Assembly (NCBI RefSeq): GCF_024807655.1
Contig: NZ_JANUCR010000008.1
Coordinates: 1-47,704, forward strand
Length of the DNA stretch: 47,704 bases
Reading direction: 5' to 3'
Source: Methanococcus voltae
Lineage (GTDB): Archaea > AGJL01 > Methanococci > Methanococcales > Methanococcaceae
The translations under genes were made by a program, and so were the position numbers. The notes beneath the pieces were generated by a model. The model saw nothing but the letters and a program-made list of their open reading frames with translations, made no database searches and had not been told where the DNA came from. This document shows, one piece after another, positions 17,420-25,066 of the stretch; positions within the stretch are counted from its first letter, which is position 1; every line of letters begins with the position of its first letter.

Positions 17420-17803
17420 TTAATATCCTAATTCTATCGATCTCCTGAGATAAATAGCATACCTCTTTCTACATTCAGGACAACGCTTTACATAAAGTAG
17501 ATAATGTACAACATTTCCACGATTTGCTTTTTTCTTTAGAATATCCTCAGGCAAATGTGTAATATATTTGTCAACATTTTCCAAGTCTGATTTATGATTG
17601 TATCCCCTCTCACTCATCTCCTTAGCTAACTCATCGTGTCGTTTTTTGATACTTTCAACTTCAACTTGGTCAAACTCAACGTGTTTTGTTATTTGTCGCC
17701 TACGTTTTAAAGAACCTAAAAGCATATGGCTTTCAACGTGTGCACTTCCGAGATGTTTCTGACACAATGCTTCAACTGGAAAATGTGGAAATTGATTAAC
17801 CAT
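17420..17803 (-). CDS. DenV-like pyrimidine-dimer DNA glycosylase/lyase (probable)
   Basis: The start is ATG 17803, with AGGTG (17809-17813) 5 nt upstream; this removes a 30-residue hydrophobic stretch read from the promoter. The 127-aa product resembles T4 endonuclease V, which excises UV-induced cyclobutane dimers. QKHLGSAHVES aligns with the phage QHLMAEYRE, and KKRHDELAKEMSERGYNHKSDL aligns with its [21 protein letters not shown]. Glu24 matches the catalytic Glu23. The phage nucleophile is the alpha-amine of Thr2. Here residue 2 is Val, which still offers an amine if Met is removed, but this weakens the assignment. A CPEC motif near the C-terminus is extra. It is back to back with the trp leader and convergent with hdrA. 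The alignment is from memory. Confidence 0.6.
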   Translation of the reverse strand: MVNQFPHFPVEALCQKHLGSAHVESHMLLGSLKRRRQITKHVEFDQVEVESIKKRHDELAKEMSERGYNHKSDLENVDKYITHLPEDILKKKANRGNVVHYLLYVKRCPECRKRYAIYLRRSIELGY

Positions 17804-17876
17804 TTTTACACCTATATTAATATATTCACAATAATGTATATATATTATAAGATATCTATATGTTAAATAACCTAAA

Positions 17877-17927
17877 ATAAAAATATAATACAAAATTGTT
17901 TAAAAATTGTTTAAAAATCAAATGGTG
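17877..17927 (+). promoter_or_regulatory. trp operon promoter region with 11-nt tandem repeat
   Basis: A TATA-like AAAATATAAT (about 17880-17889) is followed by two tandem copies of ATTGTTTAAAA (17895-17905 and 17906-17916), one helical turn apart. Then comes the GGTG ribosome site of the leader ORF (17924-17927). A second TATA candidate, ATGTATATATATTATAAG, lies at 17834-17850 and may serve the divergent DenV-like gene or both. The exact transcription start cannot be fixed from sequence. Confidence 0.45.
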
Positions 17928-17933
17928 TTTAAA

Positions 17934-18059
17934 ATGAATCATATAAAGAAAATCTCGAGTAAGGATAATTTCCGAAATATGAATACTGATAAATTAAATA
18001 ACGAAATAAGTAAATTAAATTCATTTGAAAGTGTTGTTTTATTCCAGTGGTGGCACTAA
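17934..18059 (+). CDS. trpL: trp operon leader peptide with tandem Trp codons (41 aa)
   Basis: This short ORF starts at ATG 17934, with GGTG 6 nt upstream, and ends at TAA 18057-18059. It encodes 41 residues beginning MNHIKKISSKDN and ending SFESVVLFQWWH-stop. Codons 39 and 40 are both TGG (18048-18053). Trp is rare in this AT-rich genome, so two in a row three codons from the stop, 266 nt ahead of trpC, is the classical layout of an attenuation leader in bacteria. Scarce charged tRNA-Trp would stall the ribosome there. The proposed role is translation-coupled control of trpCDEGFBA. Expression and conservation are not shown by the sequence. I know of no established archaeal example. Confidence 0.75.
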   Translation: MNHIKKISSKDNFRNMNTDKLNNEISKLNSFESVVLFQWWH

Positions 18060-18096
18060 TCACTGTGTAATTTTGTTAGCGAACGCCATAGTTCGT
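18045..18096 (+). promoter_or_regulatory. Candidate trp attenuator hairpins
   Basis: Hairpin A pairs 18045-18051 (CAGTGGT) with 18059-18065 (ATCACTG): seven pairs including one G-U, with a 7-nt loop GGCACTA. It buries the two Trp codons and the stop. TTTTGTT follows at 18071-18077. Hairpin B pairs GCGAAC (18079-18084) with GTTCGT (18091-18096), loop GCCATA. The loops share GGC/GCC and could kiss. A ribosome stalled on the Trp codons would melt A. This was folded by eye, not by energy calculation. Confidence 0.5.
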
Positions 18097-18325
18097 GAAT
18101 GTATTTAAATTGTATGATATTTTGCAGTAGTTAATTAAAAATTTATAAATTTTAATAAGGTTATATCCATATATTTAACCATTCAAATTTATAAGTAGTT
18201 GATTAAGTATTGTTTTGTAAAATTATTATATTTAGATTTATAAATTTATATAACTTTATGTTGATATCTATTGAGTATATAAATTTAAAAACTCAAAAAC
18301 TCAAAAAATTTTAAGGATGATTATT
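18097..18325 (+). other. trp leader transcript, remaining AT-rich part
   Basis: About 230 bases between the hairpins and trpC with no ORF. It contains an imperfect AT palindrome (AAAATTTATAAATTTT, about 18138-18153) and repeated ACTCAAAA just before the trpC ribosome site. A second promoter for trpC cannot be excluded. Confidence 0.4.
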
Positions 18326-19066
18326 ATGATAAATTTCAAAAGACAGGCGAATGCCATAAAGAATTTTAAGGAAAATAAACACGATAAAAACGACCCTGTA
18401 AATAAAATAAATAAAAATGCAATAATAGCGGAAATTAAAGTCCATTCCCCAAAATATGGAGATTTATTAAAAAATAGGAAAGAATTAGACATTTTAAAGA
18501 TATATGAAGAAGCCGGAGCTGTTGGAATCTCGTATATTACGGATAAACAGCATTTTAACGGAAATTTCAAAGTTTTCGAAGAAATTTGTAAAAATACGGA
18601 ATTACCCGTGCTTAGAAAAGATTTTATAACTACAAAAGATGAAATTGAAAAAACTGCCGAAGCTGGTGCGAGTACAGTTTTAATAATTTCAAGGTTGCTA
18701 AAAGAGGAAACTGCCGAATTCGTAGATTTTGCAATGAGTTGTGGACTTGATACGCTTGTAGAAGTTCATAACAAAGAAGAAATTGAAGTCGCAAAAGATA
18801 CAAAAACGTCTATGATTGGTATAAACAACAGGGACATACGCAAATTGGAACTTGACGATGGAACAGTTTCTTTAACTGAAAAATTAGCTAATTTAATCCC
18901 GAAAGATAGAATAATTATCAGTGAAAGTGGAATCGCTAATTTAAACGATTTAAACACAGTATTAAAATACACTGATGCAGCACTAATTGGAACATCATTT
19001 ATGAAAACTAACTTTGAAACACAGAAAGAATTTGTTAAAAGCTTTGTAAGGGGAAAATATGAGTGA
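18326..19066 (+). CDS. trpC: Indole-3-glycerol phosphate synthase TrpC
   Basis: Converts carboxyphenylaminodeoxyribulose 5-phosphate to indole-3-glycerol phosphate in tryptophan synthesis. I choose ATG 18326, since AAGGATGA (18313-18320) lies 5 nt upstream; ATG 18317 is inside that site. The family motifs of this TIM barrel are visible: AEIKVHSPKYGD (catalytic Lys), VLRKDFITTKDEI, GINNRDIRKLELD, IISESGIAN and GTSFMKTN. It is 246 aa and normal. It is the first structural gene of trpCDEGFBA and overlaps trpD by 8 nt, so translation is probably coupled. Confidence 0.95.
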   Translation: MINFKRQANAIKNFKENKHDKNDPVNKINKNAIIAEIKVHSPKYGDLLKNRKELDILKIYEEAGAVGISYITDKQHFNGNFKVFEEICKNTELPVLRKDFITTKDEIEKTAEAGASTVLIISRLLKEETAEFVDFAMSCGLDTLVEVHNKEEIEVAKDTKTSMIGINNRDIRKLELDDGTVSLTEKLANLIPKDRIIISESGIANLNDLNTVLKYTDAALIGTSFMKTNFETQKEFVKSFVRGKYE

Positions 19067-20147
19067 AACAGTTGCAAAATTAAAATCAAAAGTAAATACG
19101 AATAATTTAAACCAGAATAATTTAATGGACAAAATTCTTGAAAAAAATGATTTATCTTTTGAAGAAGCATATGAACTTTTTGGAAAATTATTAAATGAAA
19201 GTGAAATTAAAATCGGTGCTTATTTAACTGCCTTACAGATGAAAGGCATTAGTTCCGATGAAATTGCAGGTTTTGCAAAAGCTATGCGAGATAATGCTGT
19301 AAAAATTGAATTAGGTGATGTGATAGACACTTGCGGGACTGGAGGGGATGGTTCTAAAACCATTAACGTTAGCACAGCGGTTTCTTTGATACTTTCTTGC
19401 TTTACAAAAGTTGCAAAACACGGTAATGTTTCAATTACCTCAAAAAGTGGCTCTGTAAATGTATATGAAACTATGGGTTGTAAAATTCCAGAAAATATTG
19501 AAGTTGCGAAGCTTTCACTTGAAAAAACAAATTTTACATTCTTGCACGCTCAAAAATACCACCCCGCACTTAAAAAAATAATGCCTGTAAGGAATGAATT
19601 AAAATTCAAGACAATATTTAATATATTAGGACCTTTAGCAAATCCTGCAAGTCCAAAATATCAAATAATCGGTGTAAATTCCTCTGATTTGTGTGATAAA
19701 ATTGCAAGAGCGTTGCCAAGATTACAAAATATTGAAAGAGCTTTGGTCGTAAACGGCTATGGGGAAAATTACACCCTTGACGAATTAAATCCGAATGGAA
19801 ATTCAAAAATCGTAGAATACAATAAAAATGGCGCTGAATTTGAATTTAAAGAATATATCGTAAATCCTAAAGATTTTGGTCTTAAAAATTCGAAAATAAT
19901 TCCTTGTAATAGCCCTAAAGAAAGCGCAGAACGTTTAATCAACGTATTTTCTGGAAAAATAAACGAAGACAGGAATTTTATATTAATGAATGCAGCGGCT
20001 GGATTATATGCTTGTAAAATTGCATCTGACTTTATAGATGGTGTAGAAATCGCAAAAGAAGCACTCGACTCCGGTGCAGTATTGAAAAAACTTGATGAAT
20101 TGGAAAAAGTGAAAAAGTATGATGGGGGTGAGCAGTATGAAAAATAG
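19059..20147 (+). CDS. trpD: Anthranilate phosphoribosyltransferase TrpD
   Basis: Joins anthranilate to PRPP. ATG 19059 is preceded by GGGGA with 4-nt spacing and overlaps the end of trpC. Glycine-rich PRPP loop DTCGTGGDGSKTINVSTA and KHGNVSITSKSGSVNVYE are diagnostic, as is FNILGPLANPA. An N-terminal 20-residue Asn/Lys stretch (SKVNTNNLNQNNLMDK) precedes the helical domain. It is 362 aa. Its 3' end overlaps trpE by 11 nt. Confidence 0.95.
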   Translation: MSETVAKLKSKVNTNNLNQNNLMDKILEKNDLSFEEAYELFGKLLNESEIKIGAYLTALQMKGISSDEIAGFAKAMRDNAVKIELGDVIDTCGTGGDGSKTINVSTAVSLILSCFTKVAKHGNVSITSKSGSVNVYETMGCKIPENIEVAKLSLEKTNFTFLHAQKYHPALKKIMPVRNELKFKTIFNILGPLANPASPKYQIIGVNSSDLCDKIARALPRLQNIERALVVNGYGENYTLDELNPNGNSKIVEYNKNGAEFEFKEYIVNPKDFGLKNSKIIPCNSPKESAERLINVFSGKINEDRNFILMNAAAGLYACKIASDFIDGVEIAKEALDSGAVLKKLDELEKVKKYDGGEQYEK

Positions 20148-21573
20148 TACGGAAAAAAATATGAAAATTAGATTAAATTATGTAAATCCATTAGTTTTAT
20201 ACAGTTTACTGAAGGAAGAAGGAAAATATCCTGTAATGCTCGAATCACGCTCCAAAGGTCAAACTAATGCACGTTATACGTATATCTCTTCAAATCCGGA
20301 ATATATGTTAAGAGTAAAAAATAAGACAAAAATCGATAATGAAACCGTTTCAAAAGAAAGTAATCCATTTAAAGCTTTAAAAGAAATTTCAAATGATAAT
20401 AAAAATAATAACAAGTTAAATTTTGATAAAAATAACAAAGATGACAGATTTACGGGCGGATATCTTGGATATATGGCTTACGACTGTATTCATAACTACA
20501 TTGGTGGAAAAATAGAAGAACCCTCTGTTTTTGGCTATTATGACCATATGTATGTTTACGACCATTTATTAAGGAAATTTTATTATTATTCTGAGAATAA
20601 TAATTCTATTGATGAATTAAAAAACGCTGAAAAAATTGTCGAAAAAGCTAAAAAAATTCAAATTAGCGATAAAAATAATAATAATAATAAAATTAATAAA
20701 ATTAATAACGAAATGAATACTAAAGAAATTGAAATCTTAGGTTGTGATGCTGATTTCGAAGAATATACAAATATGGTTGAAAAAGCAAAAGAACATATTT
20801 ACGCAGGAGATTGTTTCCAAATAGTACCTTCTCGAGAGTATTATTTAAAAAGTGAATATTCTGCGTTTGAATTGTATAAAAATTTAAGAAAAATTAACCC
20901 AAGCCCATATATGTTTTTGCTTGAATTCGACAAAAAAATAGTTGGTGCATCGCCTGAAACAATGGCATCAGTTCAAAATAACGTTTTAAAAGTAAACCCA
21001 ATTGCAGGAACTGCACCTGTTGGAAAAAATGACTCGGAAACCGAAAAATTTGCGAAAGAATTGTTAAACGATGAGAAAGAGCGAGCAGAACATATGATGC
21101 TTGTAGACCTTGCAAGAAACGATGTAAGAAAGGTTTGTAAGCCTGGAAGCGTTGTTCTCGAAAGATTTTTCGATGTAGTCAAATACAGCCACGTTCAACA
21201 CCTTGAGAGCGAAGTTATAGGCGATTTGGATGAAAAATATGACTACAATATGTTTGATGCAATAGAAGCTACATTCCCCGCAGGTACTCTTACCGGAGCC
21301 CCTAAATTTAGGGCGATGGAAATAATCGATAAATTAGAGAAATCAAGACGAAAAGTCTACGGTGGAGCTGTAGGTTATTTCTCAAATAGTGGAAATGCGG
21401 ATTTGGCCATAGGAATTAGAATGGCAGAAATCGAGAAAAACGGAATTTGCAGTGTAAGAGCAGGGGCGGGAATTGTGGCAGATTCAGTCCCTGAAAAAGA
21501 GTATTACGAAACAGAACGCAAAATGATGGCTATGATGAAAGCCTTGGGCGTCAAAAACAATGATTTTGAATAG
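20137..21573 (+). CDS. trpE: Anthranilate synthase component I TrpE
   Basis: Makes anthranilate from chorismate with TrpG. I choose ATG 20137, behind GGGGGTGAG, rather than ATG 20119, which precedes that site; this gives 478 aa. The Trp feedback-binding region VMLESRSKGQTNARYTYIS is near residue 28. The catalytic chorismate-binding domain shows FQIVPSREY, GASPETMAS, PIAGTAPVGK, LVDLARNDV, FPAGTLTGAPKFRAMEIID and GIRAG-type SVRAGAGIVADS. A central Asn/Lys insert (NNNNKINKINNEMN) is a repeat-coded linker between domains. It is followed after 11 nt by trpG. Confidence 0.95.
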   Translation: MKNSTEKNMKIRLNYVNPLVLYSLLKEEGKYPVMLESRSKGQTNARYTYISSNPEYMLRVKNKTKIDNETVSKESNPFKALKEISNDNKNNNKLNFDKNNKDDRFTGGYLGYMAYDCIHNYIGGKIEEPSVFGYYDHMYVYDHLLRKFYYYSENNNSIDELKNAEKIVEKAKKIQISDKNNNNNKINKINNEMNTKEIEILGCDADFEEYTNMVEKAKEHIYAGDCFQIVPSREYYLKSEYSAFELYKNLRKINPSPYMFLLEFDKKIVGASPETMASVQNNVLKVNPIAGTAPVGKNDSETEKFAKELLNDEKERAEHMMLVDLARNDVRKVCKPGSVVLERFFDVVKYSHVQHLESEVIGDLDEKYDYNMFDAIEATFPAGTLTGAPKFRAMEIIDKLEKSRRKVYGGAVGYFSNSGNADLAIGIRMAEIEKNGICSVRAGAGIVADSVPEKEYYETERKMMAMMKALGVKNNDFE

Positions 21574-21584
21574 GGGTGAAGAGT

Positions 21585-22166
21585 ATGATAGTTATAATAG
21601 ACAATAAAGATTCATTTGTATGGAATTTAGCGGACTATGCTTCAATATATGATGAAATAAAGGTTGTTCCTAACACTATGAGTATTGAAGAAGTAAAAAA
21701 CCTAAATCCTGACGGTATTATCATATCCCCAGGACCTGGAAGTCCAAAAAATAGTAAAGACGTGCAAAACTGCCCCAATATAATTAAAGAACTAAATGTC
21801 CCAATATTGGGGGTTTGTTTGGGTCATCAAACAATTGCACACGTTTTTGGCGGCAAAGTAGATAGAATTTCCCCCGTACACGGAAAATCAAGCTTTATAA
21901 CTCATAATGGCGATGGAATTTTTAAGGGTATAAAAATGCCATTTGAAGCAGGGCGTTATCATTCATTATCAGTATTGGAAATTCCTAAAAATTTCCACAT
22001 TACCGCTACAAGCGATGATGGGGCAATTATGGGAATAAAACATAATTCAAAAGAGATATACGGAGTTCAGTTCCACCCTGAAAGTATATTAACCGAATTT
22101 AAGGAAAAAGAAGGTTTAAAAATTATTAAAAACTTTGTAGACCTTTCTAAATCGTATAAAAATTAA
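21585..22166 (+). CDS. trpG: Anthranilate synthase glutamine amidotransferase component TrpG
   Basis: Supplies ammonia from glutamine to TrpE. The start is ATG 21585 (MIVIIDNKDSFVWNL), with GGGGTGA at 21573-21579 upstream; GTG 21576 lies within that site. The class-I amidotransferase triad is visible: nucleophile Cys78 in GVCLGHQ, and His and Glu in VQFHPESILTE. The oxyanion region is ISPGPGSP. At 193 aa it is a stand-alone TrpG rather than a fusion. Confidence 0.95.
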   Translation: MIVIIDNKDSFVWNLADYASIYDEIKVVPNTMSIEEVKNLNPDGIIISPGPGSPKNSKDVQNCPNIIKELNVPILGVCLGHQTIAHVFGGKVDRISPVHGKSSFITHNGDGIFKGIKMPFEAGRYHSLSVLEIPKNFHITATSDDGAIMGIKHNSKEIYGVQFHPESILTEFKEKEGLKIIKNFVDLSKSYKN

Positions 22167-22221
22167 TTTATAAAAATTAAATTGTAAAAGTTTATAAAAA
22201 TTTATAAAAATTTGTGAAAAA

Positions 22222-22893
22222 ATGTTTTTAAAAATTTGTGGAATAAAAACCTTGGATGAATTGAAAATCGTTGAAAAATACGCTAATGCAACTGGTATTA
22301 TTGTAGAATGCGAATCTAAACGTAGAATAGAGTTAGAAACTGGATTAAATATTATAAAAAATTCTAAAATCCCAGTTTTTGCAGTTTCTACCACTAAAGA
22401 TTTGGAACTTTGGAAAAAAATTGTTGAATCAATTGAAAATACACTTAGTAATTCCAATAGTTATAATTCGTCTAATTCAAAAATTAAGCCCCATATTCAG
22501 ATTCATACAGATATGGACGTAAAAAATATAGAATTTCTTAAAACAGAGTATGATTGTGTTATTATGAAATCTTTTGAAGTTTCAAAGCACAGTTTAGACC
22601 CTGAAAAAGATGCAGAGAATTTATTATCTGAAATAGAAGGTTATGAAGTTGATAAAATCCTTTTAGATACGGGTAAAGGTTGTGGAAAAATTCACGACCA
22701 TAGAATTAGTCAAATTATTTCTAAAAAAATTGATGTAGTACTTGCGGGCGGTTTGAACTTTGAAAACGTAAATAACATTGTAAATTCCGTAAATCCATAT
22801 GGTATTGATATGTCGAGTGGCGTTGAGAAAAATAATAGAAAAGACGAATATTTAATAAAAAAAGTCTGTAATAACTTAAAATTAAAATCATAA
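22222..22893 (+). CDS. trpF: Phosphoribosylanthranilate isomerase TrpF
   Basis: Amadori isomerase acting between TrpD and TrpC. ATG 22222 has only a weak GTGA site, 4 nt upstream. The N-terminus MFLKICGIKTLDEL carries the catalytic Cys (KICGI). The catalytic Asp lies in ILLDTGKGCGK, and the phosphate loops are VVLAGGLNFENV and GIDMSSGVEKNNRKD. The sequence is more divergent than its neighbours and has a Ser/Asn insert (NSNSYNSSNSK). It is 223 aa. The operon position supports the call. Confidence 0.92.
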   Translation: MFLKICGIKTLDELKIVEKYANATGIIVECESKRRIELETGLNIIKNSKIPVFAVSTTKDLELWKKIVESIENTLSNSNSYNSSNSKIKPHIQIHTDMDVKNIEFLKTEYDCVIMKSFEVSKHSLDPEKDAENLLSEIEGYEVDKILLDTGKGCGKIHDHRISQIISKKIDVVLAGGLNFENVNNIVNSVNPYGIDMSSGVEKNNRKDEYLIKKVCNNLKLKS

Positions 22894-22962
22894 ACATATA
22901 CTCATAAACATATAAACATATAATCATTTGAAAATTTATAAAATTAATCTATTGGTGAAATT

Positions 22963-24162
22963 ATGAAATGTGATAAAAACGGATATTTTGGAGAATTTGG
23001 GGGTCAATACATACCCGAAGTTTTAAAACCAGCGATTGACGAGATTAAAGAAGCATACAGTGAATTAAAAAATGACGAAGATTTCCAAAACGAACTCTCG
23101 TACTATTTAAAACATTATGCAGGGCGTGAAACTCCGCTTTATTATGCTAAAAATTTGAGTGAAAAACTTGGCGGTGCTAAAATCTACCTAAAAAGAGAAG
23201 ATTTACTACACGGTGGGGCGCACAAAACAAACAATACTATTGGTCAGGCATTACTTGCTAAAAAAATGGGTAAAACAAGAATAATTGCCGAGACAGGTGC
23301 AGGACAGCACGGTGTAGGTACTTCAATGGCTGGAGCATTGTTCGGTTTAGAAACAGAAATATTTATGGGTAGCATAGATATAGCAAGACAACAACCGAAT
23401 GTAGAACGTATGAAATTACTTGGTGCAAAGGTTAACCCGGTAAACACTGGTTCAAAAGTTTTAAAAGACGCAGTAAACGAAGCTATGAGAAACTGGACAG
23501 CTACCTTTGAGAATACGCACTACTTACTCGGTACTGTGATGGGACCGCACCCATTTCCTACAATGGTCAGAGATTTTCAATCAGTAATCGGTAAAGAAGT
23601 CAAAAAACAGATTATGGAACAGGAGGGAAGATTCCCTGACCATTTAGTGGCTTGTATCGGTGGCGGTAGTAATGCTATGGGATTATTCTATCCGTTTTTA
23701 GGTGAAAAGGACTGTTCAAAAATTAATATGGTTGGAATTGAAGCAGCAGGTAAAGGTTTAGATACACAAGAGCACGGTGCTTCGATATCAAAGGGAAGGA
23801 AGGGAATTCTTCACGGTATGCTCTCCTACTTCTTACAAGATGAAGATGGGCAAATAGAAGAAGCTTACAGTATTTCTGCAGGTTTGGACTACCCAGGAAT
23901 AGGTCCAGAACACGCTTATTTACACAATCTCGGACGTGTAGAATACGACTCTGCAACAGATAAACAAGCTTTGAACGCATTTATGGAACTTACACGAACT
24001 GAAGGAATAATACCTGCTTTAGAATCGTCTCACGCAATATCTTACGCCATTGAAAACGCAGGAAATATGGCTAAAGACGATATTATGGTTATAAACCTTT
24101 CAGGACGTGGAGATAAAGATTTAAACACAGTAATAAACGCCGTAAATAAAATGGAAAACTAA
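22963..24162 (+). CDS. trpB: Tryptophan synthase beta subunit TrpB
   Basis: PLP enzyme condensing indole with serine. ATG 22963 follows GGTGA with 4-nt spacing. The PLP-binding Lys is in [27 protein letters not shown]. The phosphate cup is [10 protein letters not shown], and [17 protein letters not shown] and NLSGRGDKD are typical of the TrpB1 class that partners TrpA. It is 399 aa, full length. It is followed by trpA after 91 nt of AT-rich spacer. Confidence 0.97.
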
Positions 24163-24253
24163 TTAAAAAGTAAAAAATAAATTAAAGTAAACTAAATTAA
24201 AATAAATTAAAATATAAAAATATAAAAATATAAAAATTATAAGAGGAATTTGA

Positions 24254-25066
24254 ATGAAAAATTTAAACAATTTGAACGAAAAACCGATTTTAGTTAGTTT
24301 TTTAGTTTCAGGGGACCCAAATATTGAAGCTACATTAAAATATATGAAAGCACTCGACGAATATTGTGGAGTTATTGAACTTGGAATCCCATTCAGCGAC
24401 CCCGTAGCAGATGGTTCAACAATTCAGGAAGCAAATGTACGCTCTCTTTCAAATGGATTTAAAATAAATCAATCTTTTGACCTTTTAAAGGAATTTAGAA
24501 AAGATTCAGATACTCCAGTCGTTTTAATGACTTATTACAACCTTGTATATAACAGAGGAATTGAAGACTTTGTAATAGATGCAAAAAAAGCTGGGGCTAA
24601 TGGGCTTATAATCGTTGATTTGCCACTTGACGAAGCAGAAGAGTACCAAAAAATTTGTAAAAAGCACGAATTTGGAACAATATTCCTTGTAGCCCCAAAT
24701 ACGCCTGATGAACGTATAATATACTCAGATGAATCAAGTACGATGTTTTTATACTTGATTTCAACATTTGGGATTACTGGGACAAGAGATTCATTTGAAA
24801 AAATGACTTTTGACTTTATAAAACGTGCAAAAAGTCTCTGTAGTGATAATAGTAAATTATATGTTGGTTTTGGAATTTCAAACGAAAAACACGCTGAAAA
24901 TTTGATTTCACAAGGAGCTGACGGTATTATCGTAGGTAGTGCTTTTGTAAACATTATCAAAGAATACGGAGATTCTGAGGATACAATTATCAAATTAAAG
25001 GAATTGGCCAAAGAATTGCACGGTGGAATTGAAAAAGGATATGCAAAATATATTAAAAGCGATTAA
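24254..25066 (+). CDS. trpA: Tryptophan synthase alpha subunit TrpA
   Basis: Cleaves indole-3-glycerol phosphate to indole, which is channelled to TrpB. ATG 24254 follows GAGGA. Motifs seen: catalytic Glu in [20 protein letters not shown], catalytic Asp in [24 protein letters not shown], and the phosphate site [24 protein letters not shown]. It is 270 aa and normal. It is last gene of the operon and convergent with the acetyltransferase gene. Confidence 0.96.

Follow-up and report, generated by a model that had tools for sequence, protein, structure and literature searches.

Attenuation by a leader peptide is a textbook mechanism of bacterial gene control. The leader of E. coli and its relatives, trpL, is a short open reading frame (ORF) that precedes the trp operon and has tandem Trp codons close to its end; these codons lie in segment 1 of a set of possible 1:2, 2:3 and 3:4 helices, and a U-tract stands before the first gene. 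The leader that we describe here, from the archaeon Methanococcus voltae, is similar in its ORF, its Trp codons and a U-tract, and possibly in its helices. TnaC/Rho-dependent attenuation of the tna operon is comparable in that a ribosome held on the leader would keep the termination factor off the RNA (Rho there, possibly aCPSF1 here), but TnaC is an arrest peptide that senses an excess of free Trp and controls degradation, whereas here the Trp codons are terminal and the genes are biosynthetic. The T-box and TRAP systems of Bacillota control trp genes at the RNA level as well, through binding of uncharged tRNA or through a Trp-activated RNA-binding protein.

The described archaeal systems for control of trp operons employ DNA-binding proteins at the promoter and not a leader peptide: TrpY represses trp in Methanothermobacter, and Tar (TK0271) activates trp in Thermococcus (PMC6737238). 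Beyond DNA-binding proteins, archaeal trp control was regarded as little known in 2019 (PMC6737238). An earlier note on this DNA had proposed that ribosome-mediated trp control in an archaeon would be new or little described. This agrees with our searches of openly available full texts, which returned no case of leader-peptide attenuation in Archaea; the searched passages of two M. maripaludis transcriptome papers leave the locus unmentioned.

RESULTS

A leader ORF ahead of trpCDEGFBA

The window, by which we mean the whole stretch of 47,704 nucleotides that was analysed, belongs to a M. voltae genome (G000) and contains a 41-codon ORF on the forward strand that translates to MNHIKKISSKDNFRNMNTDKLNNEISKLNSFESVVLFQWWH (Table 1). 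It starts with ATG and closes with CAC (18054-18056) and the stop codon TAA (18057-18059). The ribosome-binding site and the TGG pair near the stop were found as the earlier note had reported them, and its assignment of trpCDEGFBA is borne out as well, as all seven genes 3' of the leader were identified by Pfam (TrpC, D, E, G, F, B and A). The distance of 266 nt that it had given is exact when counted from the leader stop to the conserved ATG at 18326 (MINFKRQ...), which is more likely to be the trpC start than 18317; across genomes this distance ranges from 138 to 270 nt.

Table 1. Positions in the window of the trp leader, its signals and the operon
Feature	Positions	Strand	Basis
TATA-like stretch, candidate promoter for the leader transcript	17837..17850	+	sequence
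Ribosome-binding site GGTG directly 5' of the leader ATG	17924..17927	+	sequence; counterparts in relatives
trp leader peptide ORF, 41 aa, ending VVLFQWWH before the stop	17934..18059	+	sequence, genus comparison
Hairpin H1, CAGUGGU/AUCACUG, segments 1:2, covering both Trp codons and the stop	18045..18065	+	pairing in 7 genomes
Codon pair TGG TGG (Trp-Trp), the proposed sensor	18048..18053	+	sequence; Trp codons at the equivalent place in leaders of two other genera that cannot be aligned
Possible alternative pairing of UCACUG (18060-18065) with UAGCGA (18077-18082) as segments 2:3, which could not form together with H1 or H2	18060..18082	+	comparison
Hairpin H2, CGAAC/GUUCG, segments 3:4	18080..18095	+	pairs kept, covariation
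Element UAUUUUGCAGUAGUUA with U-tract, candidate termination site	18118..18133	+	conservation
trpCDEGFBA operon	18317..25066	+	Pfam, NCBIfam; gene order identical in 11 genomes of the family

Across the genus the ribosome-binding site GGTG or GGTGG occurs at the same position; the other genera have GGTG or a GTG-type site. Relatives have TATA-like stretches as well, which lie, relative to the leader start, at -59 to -63 (G001-G003) or near -80 (G008, G009 and G015). A sigma-70 promoter scan was uninformative, the host being an archaeon. The promoter region of the trp leader overlaps that of a divergent gene on the reverse strand (17420-17803), whose product of ~128 residues has the Cys motif CPECRKRY in its C-terminal part; the gene 5' of the leader is another one in G001-G003.

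The end of the leader is conserved throughout the genus

A leader ending in VVL[F/S]QWW[H/Q] directly before the stop precedes trpC in 7/7 genomes of the genus (the genome of the window and six others). Hence both the ORF and the Trp pair, on whose conservation in relatives the earlier note had itself staked its claim, are retained in all of them. The N-terminal half of the leader varies while the frame stays open and the last residues remain fixed; changes in the N-terminus fall at codon positions 1 and 2 as often as at position 3, and in one genome of the genus the start codon is GTG. A variable N-terminus with fixed last codons is the pattern that would be expected of a leader, in which the product is dispensable and the end codons are read. 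The same data bear on the idea that a small functional protein just happens to precede trpC. Such a protein could account for an ORF with a ribosome site in every genome, but with only 29-64 aa across genomes and an N-terminus that bears no sign of purifying selection we consider it scarcely credible.

The arrangement is hard to obtain at random. In the long ORFs of the window Trp makes up 0.52% of codons, and WW occurs once in 12,418 codons. We shuffled the 420-nt upstream region 20,000 times with a first-order Markov model and searched the products for ATG-started ORFs of 15-60 codons with at least two Trp among the last six. Such ORFs appeared in 33/20,000 shuffles (0.17%), and with WW in 14/20,000 (0.07%), in line with the argument of the earlier note that Trp is scarce in this genome and a terminal pair improbable by chance. 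Among 162 real upstream regions from loci of the order, a short ORF ending with two Trp codons was present in nine, and all nine (9/9) lie ahead of trpC. Because the leader is conserved throughout the genus, chance is no longer an explanation; together with the 9/9 scan matches this rules out a chance ORF.

Leaders in other genera and at other loci

Four genomes of two other genera carry leaders that cannot be aligned with the genus type and that end, directly before the stop, in AWRWW, AWRW, SWRWCGFL and KWGWCF. The leaders ahead of trpC are MELSNRTRLSTIYKMDTFFNNYSNVAWRWW in G009, MESSDIKRTKISNIYKMDSFFSNHSNVAWRW in G015, METVSDINRAKISNIYKMDSFFNNHSNVSWRWCGFL in G008 and MNTNKNVYKIIRKNHAFLYAPILKWGWCF in G019; the genus to which G008, G009 and G015 belong includes Methanothermococcus. 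In the family as a whole a leader is present in 11/11 genomes with a complete trpCDEGFBA cluster. The constituents of a trp-type attenuator (a short ORF, a ribosome site and tandem Trp codons upstream of a trp biosynthesis operon) are found together here, and control codons are present in 7/7 genomes of the genus and in the equivalent leaders of the four genomes elsewhere.

At the split trp loci inspected in family genomes no leader was seen ahead of trpC, trpE or most trpB; none precedes trpS in the 12 family genomes inspected, or trpE in the nine genomes inspected among 14 of a second family. A survey of 73 archaeal genomes outside the family revealed no convincing ORF with terminal Trp codons preceding the first trp gene; of these genomes 60 belong to the phylum of an Archaeoglobaceae record and the rest are mostly Nitrososphaerota, with one Thermoplasmata and one partial Altiarchaeota locus, and the set is without Methanobacteriales and Thermococcales. 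The few matches in this survey were out-of-frame stretches within or overlapping trp genes and were rejected. As a positive control, the same scan detected typical leaders in bacterial loci of Idiomarina, Pseudidiomarina and Mesoaciditoga. The exact core of the leader had no match in a contig collection in which near relatives may be absent; bacterial matches dominated a TrpB profile scan.

RNA structure and candidate termination signals

Two hairpins lie at and just after the end of the leader. In H1 all 7/7 pairs are kept in 7/7 genomes, with a single pair that varies on one side only; a terminator scan scored it as terminator-like, with an energy not above that of shuffled sequence. In H2 every pair is kept in the seven genomes, and two pairs are changed on both sides (CG/UG/UA and AU/GC). 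An alternative 2:3 helix, between the arm of H1 and the first arm of H2 (UCRCUG with UAGYGR), would complete the classical series 1:2, 2:3, 3:4, and the Trp codons would then belong to segment 1. In this helix 97% of cells are paired and one pair changes from A-U to G-C, but it is mismatched in the window and its score was reached by 99/500 shuffles, so that it is suggestive only. A further alternative helix, of the UAAUCACUG arm with GCAGUNGUUA, was rejected as it is not kept in G004.

Further downstream, UAUUUU(U)GCAGU[A/U]GUUA occurs in 6/7 genomes of the genus. G004 retains UAUUUU only and has lost the downstream UUUUGCAGUNGUUA element. The U-tract of the window is U4 only, and window-like genomes have the tract at some distance from H2. 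The other genera have a hairpin (CUCCAA/UUGGAG or CCAUCC/GGAUGG) whose 3' arm contains the Trp codons, and a run of U5 or U6 begins within ~10 bases of the last Trp codon (G008, G009, G015, G019). Compared with shuffles, hairpin z-scores are about 0 to -0.8 in the genus and -0.7 to -2.5 in the other genera. With the possible exception of G015 the hairpins are not clearly more stable than shuffled sequence; stability was dropped as evidence, the z-scores being too weak. Because hairpin stability is ordinary, it is position and covariation, and not energy, that carry the structural argument.

Rfam returned nothing at the gathering threshold in the window and nothing at E values up to 1 in 17850-18330. 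A known RNA family was rejected for this lack of a match; no covariance model of the T-box riboswitch or of another Rfam family fitted, which sets the locus apart from the T-box and TRAP systems.

Conserved palindromes of this kind raise the question whether the block could instead be a DNA operator for a TrpY-like repressor, with the ORF incidental. H1 and H2 are palindromic in DNA as well, and TrpY and Tar are precedents for archaeal trp control; the marks of a TrpY regulon are a TrpY gene and promoter TRP boxes (PMC6737238). However, the block lies well 3' of the TATA-like stretch, and an operator leaves unexplained why in-frame Trp codons stand at the end of an ORF again and again, in three genera whose leaders cannot be aligned and also at a second locus (see below). 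We regard an operator as highly improbable.

A leader ahead of a second trpB

We built an RNA model on the seven genus leaders; run across 36 genomes, it found its seven members and gave a few weak matches. One of the weak matches, in G006, and a DNA pattern in G005 mark a 64-residue ORF that ends in FLFQWWH before the stop and precedes a second trpB by 377-398 nt (leaders L280 and L281, reverse strand, on G005:C2 and G006:C2). The ribosome site of this ORF is indistinct. The second trpB was identified by NCBIfam trpB and is ~72% identical to the first; a TrpB search of 22 family genomes found it only in G005 and G006. More than 200 nt 3' of this leader stands UUUUUUGCAAUUAUUA, which resembles the element at 18118-18133. 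So this type of leader accompanies tryptophan genes to another locus, where the RNA 3' of it is different.

The second locus matters for the view that the nascent peptide (...VVLFQWWx) arrests the ribosome in the manner of TnaC, perhaps with free Trp as effector, so that the residues would count and not the codon supply. Not only WW but also VLFQ is nearly invariant, and the second-trpB leader again has LFQ despite the different downstream RNA. Yet the leaders of the other genera have Trp codons in common and not VLFQ, the 3' codons are constrained as RNA too (H1), and for a biosynthetic operon a signal of Trp excess would have the wrong sign, except where it represses. TnaC-type leaders are further characterized by a tryptophanase or permease gene, a critical internal Trp and a terminal Pro, and in place of these the locus has trp biosynthesis genes, a terminal Trp pair and no Pro. 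An arrest peptide thus seems improbable to us.

Some minor observations were made along with these searches. The nonamer CGCUAUAGU of the H2 loop (CGCCAUAGU in the window, 18084-18092) also occurs 3' of the second-trpB leader, where the surrounding stem is different. GCUAU is a possible pairing partner of GUGGC from the Trp codons. In G002 (L270/L341) and G003 (L278/L342) there is an ORF ending in GFVLFQYC before the stop, which has GTTTTATTCCAGT in common with the trp leader and has a hairpin, CAGUAUU/AAUACUG, across its Tyr codon. It is followed by a small protein and a sodium/solute symporter of PutP-like type, and it is absent ahead of the orthologue in G004. Translation of this frame is doubtful because a different, overlapping short ORF has the better ribosome site.

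DISCUSSION

In this study we describe short ORFs with terminal Trp codons that lie ahead of the trp operon in all 11 genomes of one archaeal family that have it complete. As the most plausible reading, to which we assign a probability of about 70%, a ribosome stalled on the leader senses Trp starvation and controls termination before trpC. Sensing by a stalled ribosome is strongly supported by the comparison of leaders. The switch, that is the steps after sensing, we infer from the hairpins and U-tracts; the promoter, translation, stalling, termination and the role of aCPSF1 are inferred too.

The process might run as follows. The trp mRNA would begin upstream of the leader, which would be translated during transcription. 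With ample Trp-tRNA the ribosome would clear the two Trp codons and depart at the stop, and once it is gone the RNA structure and the U-tract ahead of trpC would bring transcription to a stop, with aCPSF1/FttA as the probable factor. Under a shortage of Trp-tRNA the ribosome would stall on the Trp codons and block the hairpin that contains them; the termination signal would then stay silent and the polymerase could enter trpCDEGFBA. In the genus the signal would consist of H1/H2 and the U-tract ~45-90 nt past the leader stop, and in the other genera of a U-tract within ~10 nt of the Trp codons, which would fall within the footprint of the stalled ribosome. Speaking against an attenuator, another promoter could lie in the AT-rich spacer (138-270 nt) between leader and trpC.

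It might also be possible that the same sensing of Trp-tRNA by stalling has a different output, namely mRNA stability or translation of trpC instead of transcription termination. The evidence for the sensor is identical in both cases, and H1 and H2 could protect or expose the RNA. Archaeal translational coupling fades past 30-40 nt, however (PMC12548453), and is disfavoured here because the 138-270 nt from the leader stop to trpC are too long for it. Moreover, no structure hiding the trpC ribosome site was found, and the other genera have their U-tracts immediately 3' of the Trp codons, which also counts against this reading. We therefore consider an effect on stability or translation unlikely and return to termination.

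The earlier note had called the arrangement the bacterial attenuation layout. The leader, its Trp codons and its anatomy do fit an attenuator, but the machinery of E. coli cannot be assumed: in M. maripaludis termination occurs at U-tracts via the nuclease aCPSF1, and a hairpin is not required (PMC7515710). Because termination in Methanococcus is by aCPSF1 at U-tracts, the locus may represent an archaeal variant of bacterial trp attenuation. It differs from trpL in several ways. Its helices are short and of ordinary stability, the 2:3 helix is not kept everywhere, and the U-tract is not always next to the last hairpin; the other archaeal genera have a simpler arrangement still, in which the U-tract adjoins Trp codons that belong to the 3' arm. 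A coupled ribosome has been proposed in a review to compete with aCPSF1 and keep it off the transcript (PMC8116511). Our more specific suggestion is that the ribosome stalled on the terminal Trp codons shields the nearby U-tract from aCPSF1/FttA, with alternative hairpins added in Methanococcus, and that this is the first ribosome-mediated attenuator in Archaea; we offer it tentatively and give it somewhat less than an even chance.

If the proposal is true, it would provide direct in vivo evidence that archaeal ribosomes trail RNA polymerase closely enough to decide termination. Whether ribosome-polymerase coupling in Archaea does so is an open question (PMC8116511). The leader offers a small, genetically tractable switch, and genetics, Term-seq and an aCPSF1 depletion strain are available in M. 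maripaludis. If the leader is independent of bacterial ones, the same solution would have evolved atop a different, eukaryote-like termination factor. The findings suggest that a stalled ribosome can serve as a gauge of tryptophan in archaea, as it does in bacteria.

A last observation concerns the operon itself. TrpB of the genus (22963-24162 in the window) is 87-92% identical within the genus and 65-66% identical to that of the other genera. For TrpC the identity between the genus and the other genera is 72-73%, higher than for TrpB, with the operon order unchanged. Judged from these identities, trpB possibly has a different history.
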